A DNA stretch of 64,000 bases from Gimibacter soli (GTDB taxonomy: Bacteria; Pseudomonadota; Alphaproteobacteria; Sphingomonadales; Kordiimonadaceae). Under the pieces are notes generated by a model. That model ran no database searches, was not told the origin of the DNA, and saw only the letters and a program-made list of their open reading frames with translations. The DNA lies in the NCBI RefSeq assembly GCF_028463845.1, contig NZ_CP116805.1:2294001-2358000 (forward strand), written 5' to 3'. A program made the translations under genes and the position numbers. This document shows positions 26,057 through 52,577 of this stretch, piece after piece (within the stretch, counting starts at the first letter, position 1; each line of letters begins with the position of its first letter).

Positions 26057-26310
26057 CAGGGAAAGCGGGCAACAATCGCCCACCCTCGCCCCCGAAGTGC
26101 TTCCCATCGCAGCAGAATCTGCCCGTTTCCACCCCTGCCACATGGCATCTTTTACCCCTACAACTCGGTGCAACGGGCACACCAAAATCAATAAATAATC
26201 TATATATTTCATTATATTATCAATTTTATAAAAACTGGCACACCTCTTGCTGATCACTAGGCAAGCCGAGAAGTCGGCGGGTTCGAAACGTCTAGTGGAG
26301 GAGAGGTTAA
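26057..26310. other. Upstream control region of flagellin gene 1
   Basis: No gene is seen here. A strongly AT-rich tract (about 26186-26235) lies directly before the sigma-54 promoter and contains near-matches to IHF sites, suggesting a DNA-bending site for an upstream activator. A GGAGGAGAGG ribosome site is at 26297-26306. Confidence 0.5.
26236..26251 (+). promoter_or_regulatory. Sigma-54 promoter of flagellin gene 1
   Basis: TGGCACACCTCTTGCT is an essentially consensus -24/-12 element, 75 bases before the flagellin start. Confidence 0.9.
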
Positions 26311-27141
26311 ATGGCCTTCTCAATTAACGTAAACGCCAGTGCGCTGAGTGCACTTCGTAACTTGGACAATACCAACCGGTCGCTGAATACGACCCAGACC
26401 CACATCAACACGGGCCTGAAAATTTCGTCCGCAAAAGATAACGCCGCGGTCTTCTCGATCGCGCAAAAGTTGCGCGGCGACTTGCGCGGCCTGAACGCCG
26501 TGAAGCAGTCGCTCGACCGCGGCATCTCGACCGTCGACGTGGCCCTTGCCGCCGCGAACGCCATCTCCGACCTGCTCCTTGAAATGAAGGAAAAGGCCGT
26601 GGCCGCCGCCGACCAGGGCCTCGATTCAACAAGCCGTCAGGCCCTGACGCAAGACTTCCGTGCCCTGCGCGACCAGATCAGCACGATTGTCGACAACGCC
26701 TCGTTCAACGGCACCAACATCATCGATGGCGGCACCGACCAGATTGTGGCGATCACCAATGCTGACGCAACACAGACGCTGAGCGTGGCACACGAAAACC
26801 TGACGCTGGGTTCGAGCGCGATCCCGATCGATGCCACGCAGGAAATCAGCACCCTTTCCGACGCAGCACTTGCTGTGACCGAAGTAGGTCAGGCAATCAA
26901 CAACCTGAACTCCGTTCTGACCCGTCTCGGCTCGGGCGCCAAGGCACTTGAACAAAACCGCATCTTCGCCGGCACGCTTTCAGACGTGATCGAGGTGGGT
27001 ATCGGCAATCTTGTCGACGCGGATATGGCGAAGGAAAGTGCGAACTTGCAGGCCTTGCAGGTCAAGCAGCAGCTGGGTATTCAGGCGCTTTCGATCGCCA
27101 ACCAGTCGCCGCAGCAGATCCTGTCGCTGTTCCAGGGTTAA
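26311..27141 (+). CDS. Flagellin 1
   Basis: Filament subunit of 276 residues. The N-terminal D0/D1 helices (MAFSINVNASALSALRNLDNTNRSLNTTQTHINTGLKI, then DNAAVFSIAQKLRGDL) and C-terminal D1/D0 helices (DVIEVGIGNLVDADMAKESANLQALQVKQQLGIQALSIANQSPQQILSLFQG) are conserved. The central D2 segment is short (~155-185), giving the compact alphaproteobacterial flagellin. It is the most divergent of the four flagellins here and is placed apart from them, convergent with pseC. It has its own sigma-54 promoter and a strong ribosome site. No clear terminator follows. Confidence 0.95.
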   Translation: MAFSINVNASALSALRNLDNTNRSLNTTQTHINTGLKISSAKDNAAVFSIAQKLRGDLRGLNAVKQSLDRGISTVDVALAAANAISDLLLEMKEKAVAAADQGLDSTSRQALTQDFRALRDQISTIVDNASFNGTNIIDGGTDQIVAITNADATQTLSVAHENLTLGSSAIPIDATQEISTLSDAALAVTEVGQAINNLNSVLTRLGSGAKALEQNRIFAGTLSDVIEVGIGNLVDADMAKESANLQALQVKQQLGIQALSIANQSPQQILSLFQG

Positions 27142-27244: not shown

Positions 27245-28432
27245 TCAGCCGAGCAGGCGAACAAGTGCCTCAACCACGCGCTCCGGCCCATCCTCGGGCA
27301 ATGCAGGGAAGATCGGCAGGCTCAGCGCCCGGCGATAGTAAGCCGCAGCACCCGGCAAATCCTGCTCGCCATAGCGAGCCCTGTAATAGGGTTGCCAGTG
27401 TACCGGGATATAATGGACCTGCGTTCCGATCCCTTCTGCCACCAGTGCCCGCATCAGCCGGGCACGCGTGGTGCCTAGGGCCTCATAATCGATGAGGACA
27501 GGATATAGGTGCCAGGCAGATTGGCCCGGCATCCGCGGGATCGGCCGCAACAGATTGTCATGCGGCTTCAGGAGCGCGTCATAGCGGTCAGCGATGGCGC
27601 GACGGGCGGCGATAAACCGGTCAAGCTTGCCGAGCTGCGAAAGCCCCAGCGCACACTGAAAATCGGTAGCGCGGTAATTGTAGCCAAGTTCCTGCATTTC
27701 ATAGAACCACGGGTTGGCTTCGCCGCCTTCATCGAGTGCGAGATCAGCAGCCAGCCAGCCGCCCTCGCCCCGGCGCATGTCATGCCCGCGCAGCCGGCGC
27801 AGGCGCGCGGCAACGCTCGCATCGTTCGTCGTGACCACGCCCCCCTCGCCCATCGCGATGGTTTTCACCGGGTGCAGCGAGAAACAGGCAAGATCTTCCC
27901 ACTGGCCGTCACCGGGCGTGCCGCGTTCAGCATACTCGGCCCCAATGGCATGGGCACAATCTGTGATGATGGCGGCACCTGCTTGCCTTGCAATCGCAGC
28001 GATCTCCTCCATATCGGCAATCTGGCCATTGAGATGGACAGGCAGCACAGCCTTCACCGGGCCATTCGCCCCAGCGAAGGCCGTGCGCAAGCTTGCAGGC
28101 GTCAGAAGGCCGGTATCGGGATCAACATCGGCAAACACCACTTCGGCGCCACACATGCGCACGGCGTTGGCCGTGGAAAGGAACGTGACGCTCGGCACAA
28201 TCGCCCGGTCACCCTCCCTGAGGCCCGCTGCGATGCAGGCAAGGTGCAAGGCTGTTGTGCCGTTCGAACAGGCAACAGCCTCTTTCGCACCGACGCGCGC
28301 CGCAAACGCACGCTCAAACTCGGCGACCTTGGGGCCACCGGTAAGCATGGACCCACGCAGAACCTCTGCCACTGCCGCGATATCGTCTTCATCGATGGAG
28401 TGGCGGCCATAAGGGAGAAAGTCTGCAGGCAT
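27245..28432 (-). CDS. pseC: UDP-4-amino-sugar aminotransferase PseC
   Basis: PLP-dependent transaminase for step 2 of pseudaminic acid synthesis, converting the 4-keto product of PseB to the 4-amino-altrose derivative. The 395-residue DegT/DnrJ/EryC1 protein begins MPADFLPYGRHSIDEDDIAAV, has ACSNGTTALHLA, the PLP Lys in SLHPVKTIAMGEGG, and GYNYRATDFQCALGLSQL. The ATG at 28432 is chosen by family alignment, 7 bases after pseB. It is the last gene of the minus-strand operon that begins with the radical SAM gene. The Caulobacter equivalent is FlmB. Confidence 0.93.
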   Translation of the reverse strand: MPADFLPYGRHSIDEDDIAAVAEVLRGSMLTGGPKVAEFERAFAARVGAKEAVACSNGTTALHLACIAAGLREGDRAIVPSVTFLSTANAVRMCGAEVVFADVDPDTGLLTPASLRTAFAGANGPVKAVLPVHLNGQIADMEEIAAIARQAGAAIITDCAHAIGAEYAERGTPGDGQWEDLACFSLHPVKTIAMGEGGVVTTNDASVAARLRRLRGHDMRRGEGGWLAADLALDEGGEANPWFYEMQELGYNYRATDFQCALGLSQLGKLDRFIAARRAIADRYDALLKPHDNLLRPIPRMPGQSAWHLYPVLIDYEALGTTRARLMRALVAEGIGTQVHYIPVHWQPYYRARYGEQDLPGAAAYYRRALSLPIFPALPEDGPERVVEALVRLLG

Positions 28433-28439
28433 GTTGGCC

Positions 28440-29477
28440 TCAGGCTGACTGGGCGGGGATTTGCGCGAGTATTTCCCGCAGTTCCTCGACACTCATCCAG
28501 CGGTCGTTCTTGTCGCTCGCATATTCAAAATCGGGCGCGACCAGCGGCTGGCCTTCGGATGCCAGGGATTTGCGGTCCCAGAAATTCCATTCCGGTTCGA
28601 TCACATAGCGATCTTCAAGGTCGACCGTCGTGCGGGCATTATGCTCGGTGATCATCAGCTCATGCAGCTTTTCGCCCGGCCGGATGCCAACCAGCTTCTT
28701 TTTGCAGCCGGGCGCCAGTGCCTCGGCAAGGTCCGTGATCCGCATCGAAGGGATTTTCGGCACAAAAATTTCGCCGCCGCGCATGATGGGCAGGCAGGAA
28801 AGCGTGAAGGCGACGGCCTGCTCCAGCGTGATCCAGAAACGGGTCATATGAATATCGGTGATCGGCAGCTCCGTCGCCCCGTCCGCCAGCAGCTTGCGGA
28901 AGAAGGGAATGACGCTGCCGCGCGAACCCAGCACATTGCCATAACGCACCACGGCAAAACGGGTACCGGTGCCGGCAGCAAGGGCGTTTGCCGCCACGAA
29001 GATCTTGTCCGACGCCAGCTTGGAGGCGCCATAAAGGTTGATCGGGTTCACCGCCTTGTCAGTCGACAGCGCGATCACCTGCTTCACGTTCGAGCGGATC
29101 GCCGCCTGCACGACATTCTCGGCACCGATCACGTTGGTTCGGATACATTCGAAGGGGTTATATTCAGCAAGCGGCACCTGCTTTTGCGCGGCCGCGTGGA
29201 TCACGATATCCACCCCGCGGAACGCCATGATCAGCCGGTCCACATCGCGCACATCGCCAACGAAGAAACGAACCTTCGCCTGATCGCGCTTCGACAGGCT
29301 GTTCTGCAGCTCGAAATGGGCATTCTCGCCCCGCGCCAGCACAATCACCCGCCGCGGATTATGTGCGGTAAGCAAATGCCGAAGCATAGCCTTACCGAAC
29401 GAACCTGTGCCGCCCGTGATCAGGATCGACTTGCCGTTTACCTGACTGTTCAGGAGGCCTTCCATATCCACTGCCAT
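28440..29477 (-). CDS. pseB: UDP-GlcNAc 4,6-dehydratase (inverting) PseB
   Basis: First committed enzyme of pseudaminic acid synthesis. The 345-residue short-chain dehydrogenase-like protein has the nucleotide loop TGGTGSFG, the catalytic TDK in LSTDKAVNPINLYGASKL with YxxxK, and DVRDVDRLIMAFRGVDIVIHAAAQKQVPLAEYNPFE. The Caulobacter homologue is FlmA. It lies 7 bases from pseC and 44 bases after a methyltransferase gene. pseG and pseI are ~14 kb away, so the pathway is split across two operons. Confidence 0.94.
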   Translation of the reverse strand: MAVDMEGLLNSQVNGKSILITGGTGSFGKAMLRHLLTAHNPRRVIVLARGENAHFELQNSLSKRDQAKVRFFVGDVRDVDRLIMAFRGVDIVIHAAAQKQVPLAEYNPFECIRTNVIGAENVVQAAIRSNVKQVIALSTDKAVNPINLYGASKLASDKIFVAANALAAGTGTRFAVVRYGNVLGSRGSVIPFFRKLLADGATELPITDIHMTRFWITLEQAVAFTLSCLPIMRGGEIFVPKIPSMRITDLAEALAPGCKKKLVGIRPGEKLHELMITEHNARTTVDLEDRYVIEPEWNFWDRKSLASEGQPLVAPDFEYASDKNDRWMSVEELREILAQIPAQSA

Positions 29478-33607: not shown

Positions 33608-35146
33608 TTATGGAAAGTTGAGATGCTCGAGAGAAGTGTCGAGGTTCATATCCCCGTAGCTCGCTCGCTTCACGAGGTCTGAAACAGCCCGATTGTTGTT
33701 CATGAACAAGCAAGAGGCACAGATGTCGCGCGGATCGAAGAAAGGCTGAAGAGGCTCGGTGAACAGCCGGTGTACCTCGGTGCTCTTGACCGTACCCCAT
33801 TTGTCGGCATTGAAACGCCGCTCAGAGACTGAAATGTCGGTCTCGCCTTGCTCGTCAGCAAGCACGGTAACGGAGTCGCAAGGATAGCAGTGCGAATACC
33901 CGTTCTCTTCATGCCCCGTTGTGTCCCAAAAGACGTTGTAGGACTGAAGTTTACATTGCCCGTCTGACCAAAGCTCTTCAGCCTCACGCTGTGAGCCGTG
34001 ATACTTGAGCTGGTGAAAAATCCTGGAAAGCGGCTTTCCGACTTCATCAATGAAGCCAAGCCTGAACAGGCGGTCCGCCAAATCCTGATGTGCCTTCAAT
34101 TGCGCCTGACGCGTCAGATTGCAGTCTGTCAGCAACCTCACGTAACGGAATCCATTTTCATGGGCAGATGCGTCCAAGCGCTTGAGCATATCGTCATCAG
34201 TCCACGGGCCGTAAACATACGAGAGGCCGACTGTCAGGCTATCATTGTGACGTAAGCTGGCCGGAATATATTGCCGGTCAAAGCGGCCATCCGGATAGAA
34301 AGGTGACGCCGATTCCGGGGTGATTGACAGCCTGACCCACTTGAACCTCTCATAAACGTCCTCGGCAATTTTCGGCGGGAAGCCATTGGTAATCAAACCG
34401 ACATCCAAATCCAGCTCACCAAGCCACCTAACAAATTCCGAGAAGTGCGGCCAAAGATTCGGTTGTCCACCACCCGACAGGATGAGCCCCTTCAGCCGAA
34501 TATCTGTGCCCGTCAGCCGCCGGTATTCTTCGTTGTAGCGGACAAACTCATTCCGGTTCAGTGCTGCCTGCTCGTTATACAATGTACTGACAAACGCCTG
34601 AGCTTCAGTGAGCGAAACACTGTCCCGCTTGTTCCGCAATATTGTGGAGCAGAACGGACAGTTTGAGGAACAAAGTTGATGAAGCGTCAGGGTTGCCCTT
34701 ATGATGCTACCAAAGCCTGTTTCCTTGAGCTTTTGAAAAATTGGCCAGTGATGAGCGAGTTTACCGCCCGTCGCAGTAAAGCTCTGTTCCGCAATCGTTC
34801 TTTGATGCCGCACCAGGTCGGGCGAAACATTGGTCCGGGTACGAGGCGACCATTTTCCAACCACCAGATCGCTTTCATAAATATTGAAAGCCTCAGTGGA
34901 CCCCCGAACTTCGAATGAGCCGAAAATGAAGCTGGCAATATCCGGTGTAATCGCAGCCTGCCTCACCAGATTGCCATCATTGTCAAGAATGTTAACAAAG
35001 GTATGCACCGCCTTGTGCCGGCCAGACCGCTTACCTATGACGAGCAATTCAGGCTGCGGCAACGCATCACCGCGATACTTGAGCGTGAATTCACCGAGGT
35101 CGAGGGTGCTCTCCTCTGGCCGTGACATTTGCCGGGTTGGTGCCAT
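33608..35146 (-). CDS. Radical SAM protein with C-terminal cysteine cluster
   Basis: A 512-residue radical SAM enzyme. The 4Fe-4S site CSSNCPFC (CX3CX2C) lies at Cys159, 163 and 166; ILSGGGQPNLW is the SAM-binding GGE-like region, and VGLITNGFPP follows. The N-terminal ~150 residues form an extra domain. The C-terminal part has more cysteines (GQCKLQ, HCYPCDS, DICASCLF) that could hold a second iron-sulfur cluster as in SPASM proteins. The ATG at 35146 follows GAGGAGAG, better than the TTG at 35182. It leads the operon ending in pseBC. The substrate is unknown; radical chemistry on a sugar or peptide is plausible. Confidence 0.78.
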   Translation of the reverse strand: MAPTRQMSRPEESTLDLGEFTLKYRGDALPQPELLVIGKRSGRHKAVHTFVNILDNDGNLVRQAAITPDIASFIFGSFEVRGSTEAFNIYESDLVVGKWSPRTRTNVSPDLVRHQRTIAEQSFTATGGKLAHHWPIFQKLKETGFGSIIRATLTLHQLCSSNCPFCSTILRNKRDSVSLTEAQAFVSTLYNEQAALNRNEFVRYNEEYRRLTGTDIRLKGLILSGGGQPNLWPHFSEFVRWLGELDLDVGLITNGFPPKIAEDVYERFKWVRLSITPESASPFYPDGRFDRQYIPASLRHNDSLTVGLSYVYGPWTDDDMLKRLDASAHENGFRYVRLLTDCNLTRQAQLKAHQDLADRLFRLGFIDEVGKPLSRIFHQLKYHGSQREAEELWSDGQCKLQSYNVFWDTTGHEENGYSHCYPCDSVTVLADEQGETDISVSERRFNADKWGTVKSTEVHRLFTEPLQPFFDPRDICASCLFMNNNRAVSDLVKRASYGDMNLDTSLEHLNFP

Positions 35147-35452
35147 AAAACTCTCCTCGGTCATCGGTCCGGTACGCAACAACGGCTAGACGAACCAACA
35201 CCATACTCAAGGGGGCAAAGCAATTGCCGTTCCAGTTTCAACGCCGCATCCATATTCAGCATTTTATGCTTGAACGCATAGAAATGCCATGAGAACCCGA
35301 ACTCAACCTACCCCACTGTTTCTGCGGCCAAAGATTGCGAACAAAAGAACCCATCCGCCAACAATCCTCGGCTCGCCTTGAAAAGCATGAGAGAAGCGAT
35401 ACTAATAGCCCCATGAGATAGTTGAGGCACCTACGAAAAAGCTGACAGAAAC
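35147..35452. other. Divergent intergenic region before the radical SAM operon
   Basis: About 306 bases between the radical SAM start and the plus-strand glycosyltransferase. It must hold promoters for both directions. No sigma-54 consensus, terminator or small gene was recognised. Composition is AT-richer than the window average. Confidence 0.4.
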
Positions 35453-38147: not shown

Positions 38148-39515
38148 TCAATACAGAATGTCACGCTCAGGCAGGAACCCCAACGCCTGATACTCCCGGC
38201 CAATTTCCGGCGCATGCATCGACGCCGCGATTACCAGATGCCGGCCCGGATGCGCCATCCTGCCAAACACTTCAGCACTGATCACCGGCACGCTTGGCGC
38301 CGTCGGCAAGGGACTGCCTGCAATACGATCAACAAACATGTCCGGCGTTATTCCTCTGCGCAGCAGAAAGTCAACAAGACGGACAGCAAGTCCACCTGTG
38401 CCCCTGATGCAAATCTCTCGTCCTTGCCGCTTGGCAGCAAGCAGCCTTTCCGCAAATCCGGCCAAAACAAAATCCTGCAGCATTTCTGCTGCCTTAACTG
38501 GCGAGCGCTTGGAAAGCCTAGCGAACCCGTCCCAATCAAAACCATTTGTCCCGTCGGCAGTCTCTAGAGACATGATCGGAAAGTACCGCTCAACCCGCTC
38601 GAGAAGCGTATAGGCAGCATCGACCAGGGCCCGATGTTCCATGCATGCGGAAGCGCCGGCGAGACGCACACAACCGGCAACAAATTCCCGTTCCGGGTCA
38701 CGGGCGCACTGCGCTGCTAGCCAGTCACGGGCGGCCAGATCCGCTTCGATCAGTTCGCCGCCCTTCAGCAGGTGCGTAACTGCGTCATCAAGATTCATCG
38801 CACGGCCATCCATCAGCTGCCTGTTGCGGACGGCATCGTCGCCCTGCACCAGTTGGTGCCATCCGCCAACGGCATGATATCCATGTATCGGATGAAAGAG
38901 GCTCATGTCCGCGGATGCATCGATCACATCCCCGCCGCTATTGTGCGCGCTCCAGATAAGCCAGTTGTCCCAGCCCATTCGGCCAACAGCGAACGGCGGA
39001 ATATCGGTATAGATGTCGCGCGTGAACAGAAAAAGGTCTACCGCATTGCTGCGGTCCCAACAGCCGTACTCCCGGTCAACTGCGCGCAAGTCATCCCAAA
39101 AATCATTGCCTCCCTCGCCAAGGGGCATGTCCAGCGGCAAGTTCCTGCGGCGGGCAGTGGCGAGGCCACGCCATGCTTTGCTCTCACAGCACAGGTCCTG
39201 AAAAGCTGCATGGGACCGCGTATCAAGAATGATATCGCCGTTGATATAGCCGAGATACGGCGCGTCACTATTTTCCCGTGCCAGACCGAACATCGAGGAG
39301 ACCAGCGGCACGCCATTCTCGCTGCGCTCTACCGCCGGAAAATGCCTGAACCCGTAGGTTTCGGCCGCCGCTTCAACACCGTCCTCGTCGCCGAACAGAA
39401 TGACATCCAGCCCGAGAAGTGCCCAGCTCCGCAGCGCATTCTGCTGGAACACCGCTGGCTCGCCCTGGAAAGGCTTGAAGGTCGAAAACAGGGTCAGAGG
39501 CAGATCAGAGGGCAT
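38148..39515 (-). CDS. Glycosyltransferase-like protein with C-terminal Rossmann-like module
   Basis: A 455-residue protein. The N-terminal domain (LTLFSTFKPFQGEPAVFQQNALRSWALLGLDVILFGDEDG, then YLGYINGDIIL with a GD metal-type motif, then GRMGWDNWLIWSA) looks like a GT-A enzyme. Residues ~365-455 repeat the C-terminal module of the 35453-37153 gene (ICIRGTGGLAVRLVDFLLRRG, then HLVIAASMHAPEIGREYQALGFLPERDIL). The ATG at 39515 overlaps the dehydrogenase stop by 11 bases. The role in glycan assembly is inferred from fold and context. Confidence 0.65.
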   Translation of the reverse strand: MPSDLPLTLFSTFKPFQGEPAVFQQNALRSWALLGLDVILFGDEDGVEAAAETYGFRHFPAVERSENGVPLVSSMFGLARENSDAPYLGYINGDIILDTRSHAAFQDLCCESKAWRGLATARRRNLPLDMPLGEGGNDFWDDLRAVDREYGCWDRSNAVDLFLFTRDIYTDIPPFAVGRMGWDNWLIWSAHNSGGDVIDASADMSLFHPIHGYHAVGGWHQLVQGDDAVRNRQLMDGRAMNLDDAVTHLLKGGELIEADLAARDWLAAQCARDPEREFVAGCVRLAGASACMEHRALVDAAYTLLERVERYFPIMSLETADGTNGFDWDGFARLSKRSPVKAAEMLQDFVLAGFAERLLAAKRQGREICIRGTGGLAVRLVDFLLRRGITPDMFVDRIAGSPLPTAPSVPVISAEVFGRMAHPGRHLVIAASMHAPEIGREYQALGFLPERDILY

Positions 39516-40851
39516 TTTGATCCATCCTGCCGCGCCCAAGTGAAACAAGGGTCACACTGTTCCCGAACTCGCTGCCGGAGAACATCCGCCAGGGGTCAAC
39601 GATCGTCAGCTTCGATTGATCCGGCACCAGAGCGGGCAAGGTGTTGAATGCATCCCAAGGCGTAACAACAACAGCCAGATCGCACCCATTCAAGGCATCC
39701 GGCAAAGTCTCCGCCCATGTCAACCAACCATCAGTCGCCGGTCCCTCGGTTGCGACACCCGGATCAAAGGCTGTCACTTTAACGCCTTGGTCAACGAGCC
39801 GCTTTCCAAGCATCAGGCCCTGGCTCGCTTCTATCACTGCCGTCAGGGGCTTGTAGGAAACACCGAGGATGGATACTCGCGCGCCTTCGCCGACAAGGCC
39901 AAGGATGCAGCGCTCGAGCCGCTCCACCTGATAGTCGTTCATAGCATCGGTCGCGCGGGCAAGATCACTGCGCGCCCCCAGACTATCGGCAAGGGCTGCG
40001 AAGGCCCGATTGTCGCGCGGGAAACAGGGCCCACCATAGCCTACTGCACCCTTGAGATATTTTTTCCCGATCCTGCTGTCGGCCCCGACCGCGGTTGTCA
40101 CGATATCCACATCAGCGCCGGGCAGGCGGTCACAGATATCTGCAAGCATGTTCGCGTAGGTGATTTTGGTAGTGACAAAGGTATTGACCGAGATCTTGCA
40201 AAGCTCGGCATTCACCGCATTCATGCGCCTGAAGACCGGCTCCTTGGCACAGGTGTTCTTGTAGATTTCTTCAAGGCAGTCGCCGGAGGTCGTGTCGCTC
40301 TCGCCGATCAGGATGAAATCGGGGTGCAGCATGTCGTGAATGACACTGCCAAGTGCGATGAATTCGGGATTATAGCAAAGCCCGATGTCGCGGCCGGCCT
40401 TTAGACCAGTCGCCTTTTCCAGTGTCTGTCGAATGATGCCATCTGTGGCACCCGGCATCACTGTGCTGGTGACAACGATAAGGTGCCGAGACTGCTTGGC
40501 CCGAAGCGCCGGAGCCATTCCTTCAATAGCGCTAAGGACATAGTCGAGCGAGAAAAACCCGTCAGGTTTGCTCGGCGTTGGTACGATAATGAAGGAAACG
40601 TCACTGTTCGAAACGGCTACCTCGATCTTCTCGGTCGCAGTTAGACGCGCGGCGACCTTATTAATCATGTCCTGCAAGCCGGTCTCATTTACCGGCGCCA
40701 CGCCCCGCTGAACTGCGGACACAAAATCTCGATTGAGGTCGTACCCGATGACCTTGTAGCCACCGTTCGCCATGACAGCGGCGAGCGGAGCTCCAAGCTT
40801 GCCAAGCCCGATGACGGATACACGCGGAAAATCGATGGCTTGTGAAGACAT
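39505..40851 (-). CDS. UDP-glucose/GDP-mannose dehydrogenase-family protein
   Basis: A 448-residue NAD-dependent nucleotide-sugar 6-dehydrogenase that would oxidise a hexose to a uronic acid. SVIGLGKLGAPLAAVMANGGYKVIGYD is the N-terminal NAD site, VVTSTVMPGATDGI and YNPEFIALGSVIHDML follow, and the catalytic Cys is in GAVGYGGPCFPRDN. The C-terminal substrate domain has ILGVSYKPLTAVIEASQG. The ATG at 40851 follows GAGG. A GDP-mannose or UDP-N-acetyl-sugar substrate is as likely as UDP-glucose. It is followed by the epimerase-like gene two places on. Confidence 0.87.
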   Translation of the reverse strand: MSSQAIDFPRVSVIGLGKLGAPLAAVMANGGYKVIGYDLNRDFVSAVQRGVAPVNETGLQDMINKVAARLTATEKIEVAVSNSDVSFIIVPTPSKPDGFFSLDYVLSAIEGMAPALRAKQSRHLIVVTSTVMPGATDGIIRQTLEKATGLKAGRDIGLCYNPEFIALGSVIHDMLHPDFILIGESDTTSGDCLEEIYKNTCAKEPVFRRMNAVNAELCKISVNTFVTTKITYANMLADICDRLPGADVDIVTTAVGADSRIGKKYLKGAVGYGGPCFPRDNRAFAALADSLGARSDLARATDAMNDYQVERLERCILGLVGEGARVSILGVSYKPLTAVIEASQGLMLGKRLVDQGVKVTAFDPGVATEGPATDGWLTWAETLPDALNGCDLAVVVTPWDAFNTLPALVPDQSKLTIVDPWRMFSGSEFGNSVTLVSLGRGRMDQNAL

Positions 40852-40989
40852 ATAAACCTCAAACTCAAACTTGGGGTGGCTTAGCAAACTACAGCCAAGG
40901 CACTACCCTATCGAAAATTCTTCAGGGAGAGAAACTGCTCACCCGCACCACCAAGCGTCTTTGCAAGAAGCATTCCATCCGAACTATCG
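40852..40989. other. Gap splitting the flmG-pse operon
   Basis: 138 bases between the SpsF-like stop and the dehydrogenase start. A sigma-54-like string was checked and has the wrong spacing. The dehydrogenase-GT-epimerase trio may have its own promoter here. Confidence 0.35.
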
Positions 40990-44517: not shown

Positions 44518-45470
44518 CAGCCGGCTGCACCTTCTCGCACATAAAGGTCGCTCATGAAGCGGTACGATGCGAGGCCCCAGCGGATCAGCCGCGGCTTCAC
44601 GGCCGCAGCATCACCTGCAGCCATCTGGATAAGCCGTTCGGGCGACGCGAGGCCAGCCTCAACACTCAGCGACGAAACGCCGCCGAAACGGGGGTTGACC
44701 TCGATGAAAGAGAATTTCTCGCCGGCCTTATCGTGCACAAAAGCCTGCACCACATTGTGCCCCTTCAGGCCGAGCCGGGCGCAGAGGTCAAGCGACGCCT
44801 GCATCAGGGCCGGCAGCTCCACCGTGCGGCTATAACTGCTTTCTCCGTTCGCGATCCGACCGCGCACCCGGCTGACCGCCTGCAAGGGCTCGCCCTCCAG
44901 CGACATCAGGACATCGATTGTATATTCGTCGTCAGTGCAGAAGGGCTGGACCAGCGCGTCAGGATGGTCGGCCTGAAATGCTGCAAGCTCGGTCGTATTG
45001 TTGATCTGCGCGGTGCTCCGGCTGCCCGCGCCCACTGACGCGCGCACAAAAAGCGGGAAACCGGAAGGCTTGCCCTCAACCGCCGGCAGTACCGGAAATT
45101 TGTTGTCCAGACAGAAGCGATGGAAAGCCCGTTTGTCGAGGCACATGTCGAGCGCCTCCGCCGTCGGCAACGGCAGGATGACACCAAGCTTGGCGAGCTC
45201 CGGCGCCAATGCTGCGAGCACCTTCATCTCGCCGTCGCGGGTGGGGATCAGGAGCCGCACCCGTTCGCGCTTGCATTCCTCAAGGAGCTTCCTGCCAAAA
45301 GCGGGGTCGTCGCTTGCCGGCAGCGGGCAGAAATCATCAGCCACAAAGCGCGAAGCCACATCATCCCGGATATCCGCAGCGATCACCCGCCCGCCGCAAT
45401 CCATCAGCGCCTTGCGGAACGCTTTCACAAGCGGGACCTTGTTTGCCGAACTCGTTATCAGGACATTCAT
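44517..45470 (-). CDS. ATP-grasp ligase of the pse operon
   Basis: A 317-residue carbamoyl-phosphate-synthase-like ATP-grasp protein. It starts MNVLITSSANKVPLVKAFRKAL (pre-ATP-grasp Rossmann domain), then LLIPTRDGEMKVLA, the ATP-binding lid region FPLFVRASVGAGSRSTAQI, and the metal-binding end FIEVNPRFGGVSSLSVEAG. Such enzymes form amide or peptide bonds with ATP. Placement between pseI and pseG suggests an amino acid or acyl group is attached to the nonulosonic acid or its precursor (inference). Confidence 0.82.
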   Translation of the reverse strand: MNVLITSSANKVPLVKAFRKALMDCGGRVIAADIRDDVASRFVADDFCPLPASDDPAFGRKLLEECKRERVRLLIPTRDGEMKVLAALAPELAKLGVILPLPTAEALDMCLDKRAFHRFCLDNKFPVLPAVEGKPSGFPLFVRASVGAGSRSTAQINNTTELAAFQADHPDALVQPFCTDDEYTIDVLMSLEGEPLQAVSRVRGRIANGESSYSRTVELPALMQASLDLCARLGLKGHNVVQAFVHDKAGEKFSFIEVNPRFGGVSSLSVEAGLASPERLIQMAAGDAAAVKPRLIRWGLASYRFMSDLYVREGAAG

Positions 45471-46525
45471 TCCTTACCGCCCTCGCCGCCTTTGACCATG
45501 GCCCAATCAAGCGGCGTACCTGCAGTAATGTCGCAGGTTGCTGTCCGGCCCAAGATGCCTTTCAGATTGCGCGTATGAAGCCCACCCGCGGGACGCACCG
45601 ACCGCAGGTTTCGGGCTGTGAAAACCTCACCGGCCCTCACGTCTTCTGCAACATAAAGCGAGCGCCTGAAGCGCAGGCTGTCGGCTTCCGAGGCCGTCGG
45701 GCCATAATGTGGCGCAGTGCGGGCTTCGGCGACCTGACGGCAGGCTGTCACCATCGCCTTCATTTCGTCCGGCTCCAGCGAAAAGGCACTGTCCACTGCG
45801 CCAGCCGCCCGCGAATGGCAGAAATGTTTCTCGATCACGGTTGCGCCGAGTGCCGTTGCCGCAATAGGGATAGCCGTGCCGAGTGTATGGTCGGAAATCC
45901 CGACCGGCAGACCGGTGCGCCGCGCCAGATCAGGGATCGTTTCAAGGTGACAATCGCTATAGGGCGTCGGATAGCCACTGATGCAGTGCAGGAGCGTGAT
46001 ATTATCTGCCCCTGCCCCTTTGGCGGCCGCCACCGCCTCATCGATTTCAGCAAGCGTTGCCATACCGGTCGACATGATCATCGGCTTGCCGGTCCCCGCC
46101 ACCCGTTCGATCAGCCCGATATCAACAAGCTCGCACGAGGCGATCTTGTAAAGCGGGCAATCAAGGCTTTCGAGGAGATCGACTGCCGTCAGGTCAAACG
46201 GCGCCGAGAAGGCAAGGATACCGCGTTCCCGCGCACGGGCGAAAAGGGCCGCATGCCACTCGAACGGCGTTTGCGCCTCTTCATAAAGGTCATGCAGGCG
46301 CCGACCTTTCCATAGCCCCTCCTGCACCACAAAAACTGGCGCATCGGAATCGAGCGTGATGGTGGCTGGCGAATAGGTCTGGAACTTGACGGCGTCTGCG
46401 CCGGTTTCGGCGGCCAGGTCGATCAGTTCCAGCGCGAGGTCGAGCCGTCCCATATGGTTGCCCGAAACCTCTGTGATGATGAAGGGAGATGCTTTCTGGG
46501 TCTGTTTCATCGGATTGGTCGTCAC
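45467..46525 (-). CDS. pseI: Pseudaminic acid synthase PseI (NeuB family)
   Basis: Condenses the 2,4-diacetamido-trideoxy-altrose with phosphoenolpyruvate to form pseudaminic acid. The 352 residues comprise the TIM barrel (FIITEVSGNHMGRLDLALELIDLAAETGADAVKFQTYSP, YKIASCELVDIGLIERVAGTGKPMIMSTGMA, LLHCISGYPTPYSDCHLETI, GISDHTLGTAIPIAATALGATVIEKHF) and the C-terminal SAF antifreeze-like domain (SLYVAEDVRAGEVFTARNLRSVRPAGGL). Translation starts at GTG 46525, overlapping the flmG stop as GTGA, or at ATG 46510. Confidence 0.92.
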   Translation of the reverse strand: MTTNPMKQTQKASPFIITEVSGNHMGRLDLALELIDLAAETGADAVKFQTYSPATITLDSDAPVFVVQEGLWKGRRLHDLYEEAQTPFEWHAALFARARERGILAFSAPFDLTAVDLLESLDCPLYKIASCELVDIGLIERVAGTGKPMIMSTGMATLAEIDEAVAAAKGAGADNITLLHCISGYPTPYSDCHLETIPDLARRTGLPVGISDHTLGTAIPIAATALGATVIEKHFCHSRAAGAVDSAFSLEPDEMKAMVTACRQVAEARTAPHYGPTASEADSLRFRRSLYVAEDVRAGEVFTARNLRSVRPAGGLHTRNLKGILGRTATCDITAGTPLDWAMVKGGEGGKE

Positions 46526-48255
46526 ACTATCAGCCGGTCGCCGGAACGAGCACTTTCAACATAAGGCTTTGCCGCCTCAATAATGCGTTCCCAAGACCGC
46601 GGATGCTCAATATCATAGCCTATAACCTTGCCCTTGGACCGGTAGAAGGGCGGATGCCCGTCCGCCGCACCGAAAAGCCACCACGGACGACCGGGCGTCA
46701 ACCACACCGTCGGGACCCCAGTGACCATCGCAAAGTGCTGTGTCGCGATATTCGGCCCGATCACCACATCCAAGTTTGCCATGATCGCGAGATTGTCTTC
46801 AATGCTCTCGCGCAGGTTGGTGTCTTCCCAGTCGTGGATAACCATCCCGCTGCTTTTTCGGAACTGCTCCAGTTCTGGCTTCACATCCCCATACTGGAGA
46901 TTGATCAGATGGGCATCCCCGCCCTGTAGTTCAGCCAGCATTTCGACCAAAAAATAGCTTCCCGATCGTGTAACAGCCATATTGCCACTGCGCCAGGACA
47001 CGCCGATCCTCAGCCCGGGCCCCAACGCATCAAGCCGTTCTTTCCATTTCTGAACAAGGTCTTCACGCGGCAGGAATAGCGGCGCGGTCCGATCCTGGAT
47101 GGCGGAGACAGTGGGCCAGATGTACTGCAAAGCTGAAGCTATCGGGATATAGTAGTCGACGGAAACCTCACCATTTTTCACCAGCATTGTTAGCTCTGGC
47201 GACGACCGGAAATGATAGCCCATCTTTTTCTCGGCAGCATATTGCACCACCCGAGCTTGCGGGAAGCTGCGCCTGAAAATGTCACAGAGCCGCCGGTCGC
47301 AGGAAACGACGACTTGTGCCGCCATCTTGATCAGGTCGGGCAACACTTGCGAAAACAGGACCTCATCCCCAATGCCTTGCTCTGCAGCGACATAGATCGT
47401 CTTTCCATTCAGGTCTTCACCACGCCACACCGGGAAGTCATGAAGGAATACTACCCCCTGGCCACCTCCACGCCCCGAGCTGAGACGATAGTCATAATGC
47501 TTCCAACCTTCTGCAAGGTGACCACTCGACAAAAGTTCAACGCCGAGCCCCAAATGAGCCTCTGTATAGCCCGGCGAGGCTTTCAACGACTGCTCATAGG
47601 CGTGAATTCGTTCCTCAACCCTGTCTTGAGAGTAACATGCCGCTAGGTTTGACCAAGCCTTCGCATTGTCCGGCCCGACCCGAACTGCTTCCTCGTAGAA
47701 CGGGATGGCTTGAAAACCGCCACGGCTATATTGCACGGCTGTCCCCAGTACGTTCCAAAGGCCTGAAACCTCGGGGAACAGCGGAATAATTTCCTGACAG
47801 AACTCGATTACCTCCTCCAGCCGTTCCTGCGAATACATGGCGGATGCGAGGTTGACGTAGGAGATCGGCGCTGCAGGGTCGAGCATGATGGCCTGACGCC
47901 AGACTTTCTCGGCAATCTCATGCATGCCCATGTTAGTGGCAAGCGAGCCCATCACCTGACAGACACCGACGCTCGGTGTCGCCCGCGCAATTGTACGTTC
48001 AAGCATCTGGATCGCCAGGTCCCGTACCCCAAGCCGAACCAGAACGTCGGCAACGACCGTCATCAGGTCGATATTGTCAGGGTCTGTATCGAGCGCCTTG
48101 TTCAGGAGTTCAAGCGCCGTGGGCCAGTCCTCACGCTCGTAGGCTGCCTTGCCTTCCTGCAACAACCGCAAATTCTGGCGATTGCCTGAGGCGACGCCCT
48201 TTTTTTGAGCCTTTGCCTTGACCGCCTTTTGCCGGACTGACTTCGACTTTGCCAT
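46522..48255 (-). CDS. flmG: FlmG-like flagellin glycosyltransferase (TPR plus GT-B domain)
   Basis: A 577-residue modular protein: a basic N-terminus (MAKSKSVRQKAVKAKAQKKG), an array of TPR units at roughly 20-260 (for example AAYEREDWPTALELLNKALDTDPDNIDLM and EEAVRVGPDNAKAWSNLAACY), then a heptosyltransferase-like GT-B domain (IYVAAEQGIGDEVLFSQVLPDLIKMA, RIGVSWRSGN, NLAIMANLDVVIGPNIATQHFAMVTGVPTVWL). This is the architecture of Caulobacter FlmG, which binds flagellin with its TPRs and attaches pseudaminic acid. The ATG at 48255 follows GGAG. It leads the pse operon from a sigma-54 promoter shared with flbT. Confidence 0.85.
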   Translation of the reverse strand: MAKSKSVRQKAVKAKAQKKGVASGNRQNLRLLQEGKAAYEREDWPTALELLNKALDTDPDNIDLMTVVADVLVRLGVRDLAIQMLERTIARATPSVGVCQVMGSLATNMGMHEIAEKVWRQAIMLDPAAPISYVNLASAMYSQERLEEVIEFCQEIIPLFPEVSGLWNVLGTAVQYSRGGFQAIPFYEEAVRVGPDNAKAWSNLAACYSQDRVEERIHAYEQSLKASPGYTEAHLGLGVELLSSGHLAEGWKHYDYRLSSGRGGGQGVVFLHDFPVWRGEDLNGKTIYVAAEQGIGDEVLFSQVLPDLIKMAAQVVVSCDRRLCDIFRRSFPQARVVQYAAEKKMGYHFRSSPELTMLVKNGEVSVDYYIPIASALQYIWPTVSAIQDRTAPLFLPREDLVQKWKERLDALGPGLRIGVSWRSGNMAVTRSGSYFLVEMLAELQGGDAHLINLQYGDVKPELEQFRKSSGMVIHDWEDTNLRESIEDNLAIMANLDVVIGPNIATQHFAMVTGVPTVWLTPGRPWWLFGAADGHPPFYRSKGKVIGYDIEHPRSWERIIEAAKPYVESARSGDRLIV

Positions 48256-48300
48256 ACCAATACTCCGCTGCGAACTTTCGTGAGGCAATCGCGAACCACT

Positions 48301-48316
48301 TGGCACGCTTATAGCA
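48301..48316 (+). promoter_or_regulatory. Sigma-54 promoter toward flbT-flaF
   Basis: TGGCACGCTTATAGCA has GG and GC at the required spacing, 109 bases before flbT. Its -12 box is shared with the opposite-strand promoter at 48313-48328. Confidence 0.75.
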
Positions 48317-48328
48317 ATAATCTTGCCA
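48313..48328 (-). promoter_or_regulatory. Sigma-54 promoter toward flmG and the pse operon
   Basis: On the minus strand TGGCAAGATTATTGCT is a near-consensus -24/-12 element, about 58 bases before the flmG start. The central GC at 48314-48315 serves as the -12 dinucleotide of both promoters. Confidence 0.78.
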
Positions 48329-48424
48329 GCCATGCCAGCGCGCGACATCCTGATTTGCGCTCAACCCTTTTGATGCTAAAAGGAAAAGCGCATCAAACAA
48401 AGCACAAGCTGCGGGAGGAACATA

Positions 48425-48829
48425 ATGGCGCTGAAATTGTCGCTGCGTCCTGAGGAAAAGCTGGTCATCAACGGCGCTGTCATCGCCAATGGGGACCGCC
48501 GCGCCAACCTTATCGTCCACAACAAGGCATCAATCCTGCGCGAGAAGGACATCATGCAGCAGGAAGAGGCCAATACGCCCGCCCGCCGTATCTATTTCCC
48601 GATCATGCTGATGTATATGGACCCATCCAGTTCGAGCCAATATTATGACGAATTTGTGCTCAGGATGACCGAGTTCATGGGGGCCGTATCAACCCCCGAA
48701 GTTCTGGATATGTGCGTGGAAGTTAGTAAAGCGGTAATGGATCGCAATTATTATAAGGCACTCGTTCAGTGCAAAAAGGTGCTGAAATTCGAGGCAGATC
48801 GGCTGAATTTGAGCTATAGTGACGAGTAG
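48425..48829 (+). CDS. flbT: Flagellin post-transcriptional regulator FlbT
   Basis: In Caulobacter, FlbT binds the 5' leader of flagellin mRNA and lowers its translation until the hook is complete. The 134-residue protein matches the family: MALKLSLRPEEKLVINGAVIANGDRRANLIVHNKASILREKDIM, then PARRIYFPIMLMYMD and KALVQCKKVLKFEADRL. AGGA precedes the ATG. It is followed 18 bases later by flaF and then by three flagellin genes. Confidence 0.95.
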   Translation: MALKLSLRPEEKLVINGAVIANGDRRANLIVHNKASILREKDIMQQEEANTPARRIYFPIMLMYMDPSSSSQYYDEFVLRMTEFMGAVSTPEVLDMCVEVSKAVMDRNYYKALVQCKKVLKFEADRLNLSYSDE

Positions 48830-48847
48830 AAGGAACCCGAAGGCCAG

Positions 48848-49258
48848 ATGTCATACCAGGCTTACCAGAAAACCCAGGCATCCGCTGAGAACCCCAGCCA
48901 GACGGAATATCGCCTGTTTGCCGAGGTGACCCGGTCGCTCATGGATGTTCGGGAACTGACCCCGCCTGACTCAAAGCTTGCAGCCGCCCTCGATTGGAAT
49001 CGCCGCCTTTGGTCAGTGCTGGCCACGGATTGCGGTGCCGAGGGCAATCAGTTGCCCCAGCAGCTACGGGCTGCCATCATTTCCCTGTCGATCTGGGTAT
49101 CCAAGCACTCCTCGCTTGTTATGCGCGGCCGCGAAAAGGTCGATGATCTGATCAACATCAACCGCACCATCATGGAAGGGCTTGCAGCACAGGCCGCCCA
49201 AGTCGCAAAACCAGCAACCCCTCCGACCCAACCGACGCCGACATCCCACAACGTTTGA
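48848..49258 (+). CDS. flaF: Flagellin biosynthesis regulator FlaF
   Basis: FlaF works opposite to FlbT, promoting flagellin synthesis or secretion. The 136 residues start MSYQAYQKTQASAENPSQTEYRLFAEVTRSLMDV and contain ALDWNRRLWSVLATDCGAEGNQLPQQLRAAIISLSIWVSKHSSLVMRG, the family core. A Pro/Thr/Ala-rich tail closes the protein. AGGAACCCGAAGGCC precedes the start. Confidence 0.94.
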   Translation: MSYQAYQKTQASAENPSQTEYRLFAEVTRSLMDVRELTPPDSKLAAALDWNRRLWSVLATDCGAEGNQLPQQLRAAIISLSIWVSKHSSLVMRGREKVDDLININRTIMEGLAAQAAQVAKPATPPTQPTPTSHNV

Positions 49259-49456
49259 CAAGCGCCGCGCTCACCGCGCCCTGCCCGGCAAATTATTCCG
49301 CATTTTAATCGAATTTGACCGGCAATAACTGCCTGATCGGTATTTTTTGCCTATTATTTTGTTAACTTTTGAAGGCTTGACTGAGGGGCTTGATGTAAAA
49401 AATCGCCTAGCCAATCAGCCAGATTCAAGCCCTCCCCAAATGGTTAACAACTGCTC

Positions 49457-49472
49457 TGGCACGCAGATTGCT
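49457..49472 (+). promoter_or_regulatory. Sigma-54 promoter of flagellin gene 2
   Basis: TGGCACGCAGATTGCT is a consensus -24/-12 element 85 bases before the start codon. The 298 bases between flaF and this flagellin hold this promoter, an AT-rich tract (about 49290-49400) and no gene. Confidence 0.92.
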
Positions 49473-49556
49473 TGGGATTATTCGAGCGCAGAAGTGCTCA
49501 GTAAGCAAAATGCTTACAGGTAAAAACCGAACTTATCTCAGAATGGAGATTGTAAA

Positions 49557-50384
49557 ATGGCGTTTTCCGTCAATACCAATGCAGGCGCATTCGCCGCCCT
49601 GCAAAACCTCAATGTCACCACCAAAAAGCTGAACACCACGCAGACCCAGATCAACACGGGCCTGAAGGTCGGCTCCTCCAAAGACAATGCTGCTATCTTC
49701 GCTATCGCGCAAAAACTGCGTGGTAACGTGGCTGGCCTCAATGCTGTGAAGGGCTCGCTCGACCGTGCTCTTTCGACCCTTGACGTTGCCATCTCGGCTG
49801 GTGAAGCCGTGTCCGACCTTCTCATCGAGATGAAAGAGAAGGCTGTGGCTGCCAAGGATCCGGGTCTTGACGATGACAGCCGGACGTCGCTCAACGACGA
49901 CTTCTCCCAGCTGCGCGACCAGATCACCTCGATCGTCAACAACGCCACCTTCAACGGCACCAACGCCGTGAAAGCCGGCGGTGACGCAATCGTCGCCATC
50001 ACCGATGAAACCGGTACCTCCGACAACCAGATCACCGTTGCAGCACAAGACCTGTCGCTGCAAGGCCTCGGCCTGGATTCGGATACGGCCATCAGCGGCA
50101 CGACCGAAGCCAGCTCGGCCGTAGATCTGATTGAATCGGCGATCGACACTGTGAACACGTCCCTGTCGACCCTCGGTGCAGGTTCGAAGCGTCTTGAACT
50201 CCAGAAGGACTTCACGACGAAACTGTCGGATGCCATCGAAGTCGGTATCGGTAATCTTGTGGACGCGGACCTCGCCAAGACAAGCGCCCAGCTGCAGTCG
50301 CTGCAGGTCAAGCAGCAGCTTGGTCTTCAGGCTCTCTCGATTGCCAACCAGGCTCCGTCGACCGTACTTGGTCTCTTCCGTTAA
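49557..50384 (+). CDS. Flagellin 2
   Basis: A 275-residue filament subunit. Conserved D0/D1 ends are MAFSVNTNAGAFAALQNLNVTTKKLNTTQTQINTGLKVGSSKDNAA and VKQQLGLQALSIANQAPSTVLGLFR. The central region (~145-190) is short. It shares a 296-base block identical to flagellin 4 (49677-49972 against 51870-52165) plus an identical 3' end. AATGGAGA precedes the ATG, a leader motif common to flagellins 2-4. It is a likely FlmG substrate through Ser/Thr in the central loop (inference). Confidence 0.96.
   Translation: MAFSVNTNAGAFAALQNLNVTTKKLNTTQTQINTGLKVGSSKDNAAIFAIAQKLRGNVAGLNAVKGSLDRALSTLDVAISAGEAVSDLLIEMKEKAVAAKDPGLDDDSRTSLNDDFSQLRDQITSIVNNATFNGTNAVKAGGDAIVAITDETGTSDNQITVAAQDLSLQGLGLDSDTAISGTTEASSAVDLIESAIDTVNTSLSTLGAGSKRLELQKDFTTKLSDAIEVGIGNLVDADLAKTSAQLQSLQVKQQLGLQALSIANQAPSTVLGLFR
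49677..49972 (+). repeat. 296-base identical block, copy 1 (flagellin 2)
   Basis: Base-for-base identical to 51870-52165 (offset 2193). It covers codons for the conserved D1 helices and stops where the variable centre begins, which fits gene conversion or a recent duplication. Confidence 0.92.
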
Positions 50385-50570: not shown

Positions 50571-50586
50571 TGGCACAGCCGTTGCT
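50571..50586 (+). promoter_or_regulatory. Sigma-54 promoter of flagellin gene 3
   Basis: TGGCACAGCCGTTGCT is a consensus -24/-12 element 71 bases before the chosen start. An in-frame ATG at 50570 overlaps this element and so cannot be the start of the transcript's reading frame. Confidence 0.9.
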
Positions 50587-50641
50587 CTCCTTCTCCATCG
50601 AGCAAAAGGCTCTTAACAGCTTTCCAGAATGGAGAACGGCC

Positions 50642-51481
50642 ATGACTTTCTCAGTCAACACGAACGAAGGTGCCCTGAAGGCACTGCAAAACCTGAACGC
50701 AACGAACATGAAGCTCCAAACGGTGCAAACTCAGATCAATACCGGTCTCAAGGTAGCATCCACCAAGGACAATGCCGCTACCTGGGCTATCGCCCAGATT
50801 CTGCGCGCAGATGTTTCTGGCCTGAATGCTGCTCGGGGATCGATTGACCGCGCCCTTTCGACGCTTGATGTTGCCGTTTCGGCAGGTGAAGCAGTGTCGG
50901 ACCTGCTGATTGAAATGAAAGAGAAAGCGGTCGCGGCCAAAGACCCCGGCATTGACAGTGCCAGCCGTACGGCACTGAACAATGATTTCGTCCAACTGCG
51001 CGATCAGATCCAAGCGATCGTGCGAACGGCCGAATTCAACGGCATCAATGCGGTCGGGGGGCCGTCTCCAGCTGCCATTACAGCCATTACGGACTCGACT
51101 GGCTCTTCCGCCAATCAGATCACCGTCGCCGCCCAGGACATGTCCCTTGGTGGCACGATCGTTACCGTAGCTTCCGATGCCTCCATGACCTCGGCCGCGG
51201 AAGCATCGTCCACGCTGAACCTGATCGAGGCTTCCCTCGACAATGTCAATGCGGCCCTGTCGCGCCTCGGTGCCGGCGCCAAGCGTCTCGAACTTCAGAA
51301 GGCCTTCACGGCCAAGCTGTCGGACGCGCTTGAAGTCGGTATCGGCAATCTGGTGGATGCCGACATGGCAAAAGCCAGCGCAACGCTACAGGCGGTACAG
51401 GTCAAACAGCAACTTGGTCTTCAGGCGCTGTCCATTGCCAACCAAGCTCCGGGCGCCATCATTTCGTTGTTCCAAGGCTAA
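50642..51481 (+). CDS. Flagellin 3
   Basis: A 279-residue flagellin (MTFSVNTNEGALKALQNLNATNMKLQTVQTQINTGLKVASTKDNAATWAIAQ at the N-terminus, ending LSIANQAPGAIISLFQG). It has a distinct D1 substitution (TWAIAQILRADVSG for IFAIAQKLRGNVAG) and a different central loop, and does not share the identical block of its neighbours. The ATG at 50642 follows AATGGAGA. Subunit diversity may set filament position, as with Caulobacter flagellins. Confidence 0.96.
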   Translation: MTFSVNTNEGALKALQNLNATNMKLQTVQTQINTGLKVASTKDNAATWAIAQILRADVSGLNAARGSIDRALSTLDVAVSAGEAVSDLLIEMKEKAVAAKDPGIDSASRTALNNDFVQLRDQIQAIVRTAEFNGINAVGGPSPAAITAITDSTGSSANQITVAAQDMSLGGTIVTVASDASMTSAAEASSTLNLIEASLDNVNAALSRLGAGAKRLELQKAFTAKLSDALEVGIGNLVDADMAKASATLQAVQVKQQLGLQALSIANQAPGAIISLFQG

Positions 51482-51663: not shown

Positions 51664-51679
51664 TGGCATAAGGCTTGCT
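51664..51679 (+). promoter_or_regulatory. Sigma-54 promoter of flagellin gene 4
   Basis: TGGCATAAGGCTTGCT matches the -24/-12 consensus with one change in the -24 box, 71 bases before the start codon. Confidence 0.85.
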
Positions 51680-51749
51680 TCTATAACAGCGGGATAAAAC
51701 ATCCCTGGGCAAGAAAGCCCAACAACAACTCCAAAATGGAGAAAGCAAA

Positions 51750-52577
51750 ATGGCTTTTTCGGTAAACACCAATGGCGGCGCCTTCCTGGCCCTGCAAAAC
51801 CTCAACAAGACTTCGTCGAGCCTTGAAACCACTCAGGGCCGCATCAATACCGGCCTGAAAGTCGGTTCTTCCAAAGACAATGCTGCTATCTTCGCTATCG
51901 CGCAAAAACTGCGTGGTAACGTGGCTGGCCTCAATGCTGTGAAGGGCTCGCTCGACCGTGCTCTTTCGACCCTTGACGTTGCCATCTCGGCTGGTGAAGC
52001 CGTGTCCGACCTTCTCATCGAGATGAAAGAGAAGGCTGTGGCTGCCAAGGATCCGGGTCTTGACGATGACAGCCGGACGTCGCTCAACGACGACTTCTCC
52101 CAGCTGCGCGACCAGATCACCTCGATCGTCAACAACGCCACCTTCAACGGCACCAACGCCGTGAAGTCGGGCGGCGATGCGATCTCTGCCATCACCGATG
52201 AAACCGGCACCTCCGACAACCAGATCACCGTTGCAGCACAAGACCTGTCGCTGACCGGTCTGGGCCTTGCATCGGATACCGGGATCAGCTCGACCGGCGA
52301 CGCAAGCTCGGCCGTAGATCTGATTGAATCGGCGATTGACACCGTGAACACCGCCCTGTCGACCCTCGGTGCAGGTTCGAAGCGCCTTGAACTCCAGAAG
52401 GACTTCACGACGAAACTGTCGGATGCCATCGAAGTCGGTATCGGTAACCTCGTGGACGCGGACCTCGCCAAAGAGTCGGCGAACTTGCAGGCCCTGCAGG
52501 TCAAGCAGCAGCTTGGTCTTCAGGCTCTCTCGATTGCCAACCAGGCTCCGTCGACCGTACTTGGTCTCTTCCGTTAA
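51750..52577 (+). CDS. Flagellin 4
   Basis: A 275-residue flagellin very similar to flagellin 2. The N-terminus differs (MAFSVNTNGGAFLALQNLNKTSSSLETTQGRINTGLKVGSS), then a 296-base block is identical to flagellin 2, then the central loop differs (KSGGDAISAITDE, LTGLGLASDTGISSTGDASS), and the end is again nearly identical. The leader again has AATGGAGA before the ATG. flaG follows 100 bases downstream after a hairpin. Confidence 0.96.
   Translation: MAFSVNTNGGAFLALQNLNKTSSSLETTQGRINTGLKVGSSKDNAAIFAIAQKLRGNVAGLNAVKGSLDRALSTLDVAISAGEAVSDLLIEMKEKAVAAKDPGLDDDSRTSLNDDFSQLRDQITSIVNNATFNGTNAVKSGGDAISAITDETGTSDNQITVAAQDLSLTGLGLASDTGISSTGDASSAVDLIESAIDTVNTALSTLGAGSKRLELQKDFTTKLSDAIEVGIGNLVDADLAKESANLQALQVKQQLGLQALSIANQAPSTVLGLFR
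51870..52165 (+). repeat. 296-base identical block, copy 2 (flagellin 4)
   Basis: Identical to 49677-49972. Divergence resumes immediately on both sides at synonymous and non-synonymous sites. Confidence 0.92.

Follow-up and report, generated by a model that had tools for sequence, protein, structure and literature searches.

A candidate bidirectional sigma-54 promoter with a shared −12 core between flmG and flbT of Gimibacter soli

Divergent sigma-54 promoters of the flaN and flbG genes are reportedly present in Caulobacter, together with the elements ftr2 and ftr3, and the NtrA-dependent promoters of the E. coli hydrogenase-3 genes are said to be divergent as well; in both systems the two promoters are understood to be separate sites and not one core. 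Until it is activated, polymerase carrying sigma-54 remains in a stable closed complex. Warman et al. (2026, PMC12825309) recently described shared-core bidirectional promoters of the sigma-70 type in E. coli; excerpts of their report present polymerase binding as exclusive and confine competition to cases of strong activation in one direction. In Caulobacter, flmG is bound and activated by CtrA according to part of PMC7591256, and the level of FlbT is given as constant through the cell cycle in part of PMC3930126; flmG and flbT thus need not be controlled by sigma-54. A search of the open-access literature turned up no report of a sigma-54 pair with a common −12, although this argues only weakly that none exists.

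The locus considered here lies in a 64-kb window (the whole stretch of DNA that was analyzed) of the Gimibacter soli genome, a single contig of 3.59 Mb. On the left side, flmG (46522-48255, minus strand) matches Pfam TPR models, its designation as a glycosyltransferase gene deriving from position and TPRs. The start codon was set at 48255, which is preceded by a Shine-Dalgarno (SD) sequence; the distance from 48255 to the promoter shows a net 2-base length difference compared to Pseudokordiimonas caeni, the single genome used for same-genus comparison. Because of this difference, the upstream flmG frame, which continues without a stop beyond the promoter in P. caeni as well, is out of register there. 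The first ATG of the ORF (48348), from which the ORF would cross the promoter, was rejected as the start for this reason and because 48255 has the SD. The predicted 5′ leader of flmG (48256-48302, minus strand, ~47 nt) carries the SD GGAG at 48263-48266 and is poorly conserved in P. caeni. The end of flmG is overlapped by a gene for a NeuB-family nonulosonate synthase (45467-46525, minus strand; PF03102, 8.5e-85, and a SAF domain), and the two genes probably form an operon. The first-pass annotation had spoken of an flmG-pse operon; this description is roughly right in view of the NeuB-family gene, although the block that contains pseB and pseC is a different one (27245-29477). On the right side, flbT (48425-48829, plus strand; PF07378, 2.4e-45) is followed by flaF (48848-49258, plus strand; PF07309, 2.3e-34). 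The predicted flbT leader (48327-48424, plus strand) comprises 98 nt from ~48327 and has its SD, GGGAGGA, at 48413-48419.

Between flmG and flbT sits a 28-base element (48301-48328), in which two overlapping sigma-54 promoters of opposite strands had been proposed from the sequence. Both 16-mers, TGGCACGCTTATAGCA (plus strand, 48301-48316) and TGGCAAGATTATTGCT (minus strand, 48328-48313), proved right base for base, coordinates included; they overlap across 48313-48316, and the GC at 48314-48315 is indeed common to the −12 elements of both strands. The GG-N10-GC spacing is exact in both directions, in the TGGCA/TTGC context of sigma-54 promoters. The predicted flbT-ward promoter (48301-48316, plus strand) combines a perfect −24, TGGCACG, with a −12, TAGCA, whose TAGC is one base off TTGC, and scores 16.1; the predicted flmG-ward promoter (48313-48328, minus strand; −24 TGGCAAG, −12 TTGCT) scores 16.8, on a hand-made −24/−12 score with a maximum of 18.9. 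The core is asymmetric, the flmG-ward site having the better −12 and the flbT-ward site the better −24, and one may speculate that this asymmetry balances the two outputs. With the usual convention for the distance from −12 to +1, starts are predicted at ~48327 (plus) and ~48302 (minus), ~25 bp apart, and each falls on the −24 GG of the opposing site, as the first-pass annotation had stated. The predicted starts face outward, and the predicted transcripts would therefore not overlap. The sequence presents the arrangement of a bidirectional promoter: a shared GC, flmG to the left, flbT to the right and an SD before each gene start. The two-fold layout (TGGCA...GC...TGCCA) could also be that of an operator for another dimeric regulator, the likeness to −24/−12 elements being incidental; given the exact spacing both ways, and the one-directional flmG-ward site that most relatives keep without an inverted repeat, this is a very improbable explanation.

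A chance origin of the paired sites appears unlikely from the pattern statistics. The window contains one overlapping opposed pair, while 100 first-order Markov windows yielded a single pair at a threshold of 11.5 and none at 14 or 16. With the minus site fixed, a plus score of at least 14 is given by 9 of 127,976 window 12-mers (the real one included) and a score of at least 11.5 by 95 of 127,976. A loose sigma-54 pattern allowing two mismatches shows no excess genome-wide (279 and 275 matches vs 298 and 316 in the control). Single weak matches mean little, since loose patterns are not enriched across the genome, and the case therefore rests on the pair, its context and its conservation. A pattern covering both sites has 32 matches vs 19 in the control, the pattern itself having been derived from these two sites. 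In the 29 family genomes, the only matches to a palindrome pattern of 14 fixed bases are the present element and the equivalent site of P. caeni; the reversed control gives one match.

Wider scans covered the class and the phylum. The pattern TGGCA-N6-TNGCNA-N6-TGCCA occurs in 8 of 385 Alphaproteobacteria genomes vs one reversed-control match. One of the eight is the present element; four others lie inside ORFs, one overlaps an ORF start, one is upstream of an ORF and one falls between divergent ORFs. The symmetric TTGCAA version appears in 22 of 398 genomes of the phylum vs two in the control; 21 of these 22 overlap an ORF of at least 80 aa, and three of the 21 are at most 100 bases from the first possible start of that ORF. 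The excess over the control is no evidence of selection, because the reversed control differs in base make-up. A general class of sigma-54 palindromes was rejected, the matches in the 385 class and 398 phylum genomes being few and mostly within or overlapping ORFs.

The genome also codes for the proteins that such promoters require. It contains one Sigma54_DBD match (RpoN), seven strong and two weak Sigma54_activat matches, and FlbD (NF050807, 788.9 bits vs a curated cut-off of 750); fliX, the partner of the sigma-54 activator FlbD, lies within the window (23073-23483, minus strand, genome 2317073-2317483; PF10768, 1.4e-34). All four flagellin genes of the window have a −24/−12 site beginning 71-100 bases before the start codon. 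These plus-strand predicted promoters are at 49457-49472 (score 18.9; flagellin 49557-50384), 50571-50586 (16.8; flagellin 50642-51481), 51664-51679 (14.6; flagellin 51750-52577) and 26236-26251 (16.8; fourth flagellin 26311-27141, identified by flagellin models). A further site (genome position 2544533) lies ahead of a flgK-like and then a flgL-like gene, both named from the start of their sequences. RpoN, FlbD, FliX and the −24/−12 sites at the flagellins thus indicate that the apparatus of a Caulobacter-type late flagellar regulon is present.

The fourth flagellin (26236-27141) adjoins pseC (27245-28492) and pseB, and its promoter and leader are identical in P. caeni. Weaker sigma-54-like sites are found on the minus strand at 35219 (14.9), before ORF 33608-35182, and at 40962 (12.7), before ORF 39505-40887. 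The flagellin leaders at 49483-49556 and 51690-51749 (also 50597-50641) can form stem-loops, the last of which pairs the SD GGAG with a CUCC/UCUC-type segment. Compared to shuffles, two of the four flagellin leaders fold strongly (z −4.7 and −5.5) and the other two do not (−0.9 and −1.5). Such SD-pairing stem-loops look like a translational switch, of which FlbT is a possible target.

The family comparison covered the 28 Kordiimonadaceae genomes with FlbT (one of 29 is without it), or 29 loci when one extra family member was added; outside the family, 58 of 80 loci were used, 22 being dropped because they are the same contigs as family loci, with equal lengths, and the transfer of the extra member to the family left 57. 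An flmG relative is divergent beside flbT in 27 of the 28 genomes. A minus-strand site at most 450 bases upstream of flbT scores at least 14 in 24 of the 28 genomes and at least 11.5 in 25, and one of the 57 outside loci has such a site at 14 or more. Judged from these sequences, the predicted flmG-ward promoter is a family trait, and sigma-54 control of flmG looks like a feature of the lineage, because the Caulobacter gene is CtrA-activated in the excerpts cited above. The palindromic layout, whose conservation in related genomes the first-pass annotation had proposed to check, is found in both genomes of the genus that were compared and in none of the 27 other family genomes; conservation of the shared core thus rests on one comparison, only two genomes carrying the layout, and on present data the element would be a genus-level invention.

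Sites directed toward flbT occur elsewhere in other arrangements. In four loci of Kordiimonas or close kin (L009, L014, L018, 14.0; L023, 12.0) an flbT-ward site stands back-to-back with that of flmG, the −24 ends being 10 bp apart with no overlap; two polymerases might crowd each other in this geometry as well. Weak flbT-ward sites (11.8) are at other positions in two further family loci. Of the 57 loci from outside the family, seven carry an flbT-ward site of at least 14, five of them with no flmG match in the locus. Several lineages, then, have flbT-ward sigma-54 sites of differing geometry, and the shared core would be one solution among these.

The near-identity of the flbT side with P. 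caeni supplies comparative evidence for the rightward site. Where the window aligns with P. caeni, blocks share 85-88% of their bases; in 100-base bins, identity is 0.98 and 0.95 across 48300-48499 and ranges from 0.87 to 0.95 in the remainder of flbT. The flbT-ward site of P. caeni, TGGCACATTTATAGCA, is identical at 14 of 16 positions and scores 14.0, the last G of the −24 being lost. Identity around the plus site is 0.61 over the 45 bases upstream and then 107 of 108 from the end of the site to the flbT ATG. The −24 TGGCAC of the plus strand falls in an 11-base identical run, CCACTTGGCAC; the next two bases differ, and the DNA to the left is diverged. The flagellin promoters offer a yardstick: identity to P. 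caeni is 0.67 upstream, 15/16 in the site and 0.95 in the leader at 49457; 0.69, 13/16 and 0.89 at 50571; 0.84, 14/16 and 0.94 at 51664; and 0.87, 16/16 and 59/59 at 26236. The contrast between upstream DNA and leader that is seen at flbT is clear at 49457 and 50571 and weak at 51664 and 26236, where the upstream DNA is also well kept. Within these limits, the flbT-ward footprint supports a sigma-54 promoter that reads rightward into a leader under constraint.

Other causes of this conservation were considered. The conserved block extends ~100 bases beyond the promoter and could serve otherwise, for instance by providing the flmG promoter with enhancer sites. The near-identity is less likely to stem from a recombination event that involved flbT and broke at the promoter than from constraint. 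The flbT leader folds unexceptionally compared to shuffles (z −0.55 and −0.68; −1.01 in P. caeni), and an Rfam search of 47800-49600 returned only one weak miRNA match (E 0.55), elsewhere in that stretch; a structured RNA was therefore rejected as the reason for leader conservation, the leader folding little better than shuffles and having no Rfam match. DNA identity to P. caeni steps up at the promoter, and the glycosylation side is evolving fast; protein identity is ~77% for the compared part of flmG (46600-48255) and 97% for flbT.

The most serious competitor is a single, flmG-ward promoter: the plus-strand match would be left over or due to chance, and flbT-flaF would be driven from another promoter in the conserved leader, as CTTATRRTATAA suggests for Kordiimonas. 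This element, a conserved near-palindrome resembling an extended −10, was found (at most two mismatches) at a distance of 72-132 bases ahead of flbT in 15 of the 29 family loci, where ~2 are expected from shuffles, an excess that is partly circular because the motif was read off the same sequences; outside the family it is found in 3 of 57 loci, with ~4 expected. The site shared by the family is, moreover, the flmG-ward one (24/28), and TTTTGATGCTAAAAGG, in the conserved flbT leader, could be a degenerate CTTATRRTATAA. However, CTTATRRTATAA at up to two mismatches is absent before flbT in both genomes of the genus, and no match to the sigma-70 consensus was found at 48150-48560. The plus-strand −24 is preserved within CCACTTGGCAC beside diverged DNA, and a plus match as good is rare by chance (9/127,976). 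Taken together, these observations make a lone flmG promoter unlikely, though still to be reckoned with.

It could also be that both sites bind RpoN-polymerase, the flbT-ward complex being unproductive or serving mainly as a reverse-oriented decoy that lowers flmG output. The off-consensus −12 of the plus strand (TAGC) is in keeping with a decoy, and parts of PMC3844500 and PMC8743547 discuss RpoN sites that are not productive themselves but influence promoters nearby. A decoy would nevertheless leave aside the conserved flbT leader with its SD, which resembles the leaders behind flagellin promoters, and other lineages, too, have sites directed toward flbT; we consider this reading quite improbable.

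The interpretation as opposed sigma-54 promoters sharing one core is thus the best reading of the sequence and comparative data, which support it in part: the 28 bases are probably a bidirectional sigma-54 promoter, in which two opposed promoters run through one −12 and split the output within a co-activated regulon. RpoN-RNA polymerase could bind facing either way, always at the common −12 GC and with one or the other of the two opposed −24 boxes; one orientation would produce the flbT-flaF mRNA from ~48327 and the other the flmG-operon mRNA from ~48302. Two polymerase complexes could not coexist on the element, and their mutual exclusion would follow from the geometry. Whichever complex is present would be opened by an enhancer-binding protein, for which FlbD, together with FliX, is the likeliest candidate. 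Because sigma-54 closed complexes are stable, the output ratio would depend mainly on how strongly polymerase binds in one orientation relative to the other, and for the same reason competition should be felt earlier here than in the sigma-70 promoters. Active FlbD would set the total output, the occupancy and hence the orientation having been fixed before the activator acts. The sequence, its gene context, its conservation and the presence of RpoN, FlbD and FliX are observed, and we infer the use by RpoN, the start sites, the exclusion, the role of FlbD and the control of the ratio.

The first-pass annotation had suggested that the two genes compete for, or alternate at, a single element. Competition would agree with the exclusion expected from the geometry, but alternation finds no support, −24/−12 sites being present at all flagellins of the window as well as at flmG and flbT. 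Both directions are more likely to be on together, with initiations divided between them, because these sites are common to them and the genome has both FlbD and FliX; the element would be a fixed-ratio splitter in one co-activated regulon, not an alternator. A more specific account is offered tentatively, and we lean against it in its entirety: stable closed complexes would lock the orientation, the activator setting the total and the −24 boxes the ratio of FlbT/FlaF to the glycosylation operon, and the arrangement would have arisen in one genus when a second −24 box was added across an flmG promoter that was already there, while the earlier promoter element of flbT disappeared.

The control of flagellin translation and flagellin glycosylation would be tied in this way to one piece of DNA, and their ratio would be an evolvable property of the promoter. 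If true, a sigma-54 case would test the rule known from sigma-70 where the polymerase waits closed, and choice of orientation and activation would be separable. The present element resembles the Caulobacter flaN/flbG and E. coli hydrogenase-3 pairs in that two sigma-54 units leave one region. The surroundings resemble the late regulon of Caulobacter under FlbD and FliX, as outlined in parts of PMC3930126 and PMC3096577, with RpoN, FlbD, FliX, and four flagellins and a flgK-like gene behind −24/−12 sites. The regulation of flmG differs: CtrA is reported to activate it in Caulobacter (PMC7591256), whereas in the present genome it has a −24/−12 site, as it does in 24 of 28 genomes of the family. 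The closest likeness is to the E. coli sigma-70 bidirectional promoters, in which, according to the excerpts of PMC12825309, one core is read from both strands with close divergent starts, 18 bp being the commonest spacing and 10 and 23 also occurring, compared to the ~25 bp predicted here; the shared element is the −10 in those promoters, whereas here it is a sigma-54 −12 with two separate −24 boxes. The element would accordingly be best read, by analogy, as the sigma-54 counterpart of the bidirectional promoters known for sigma-70.
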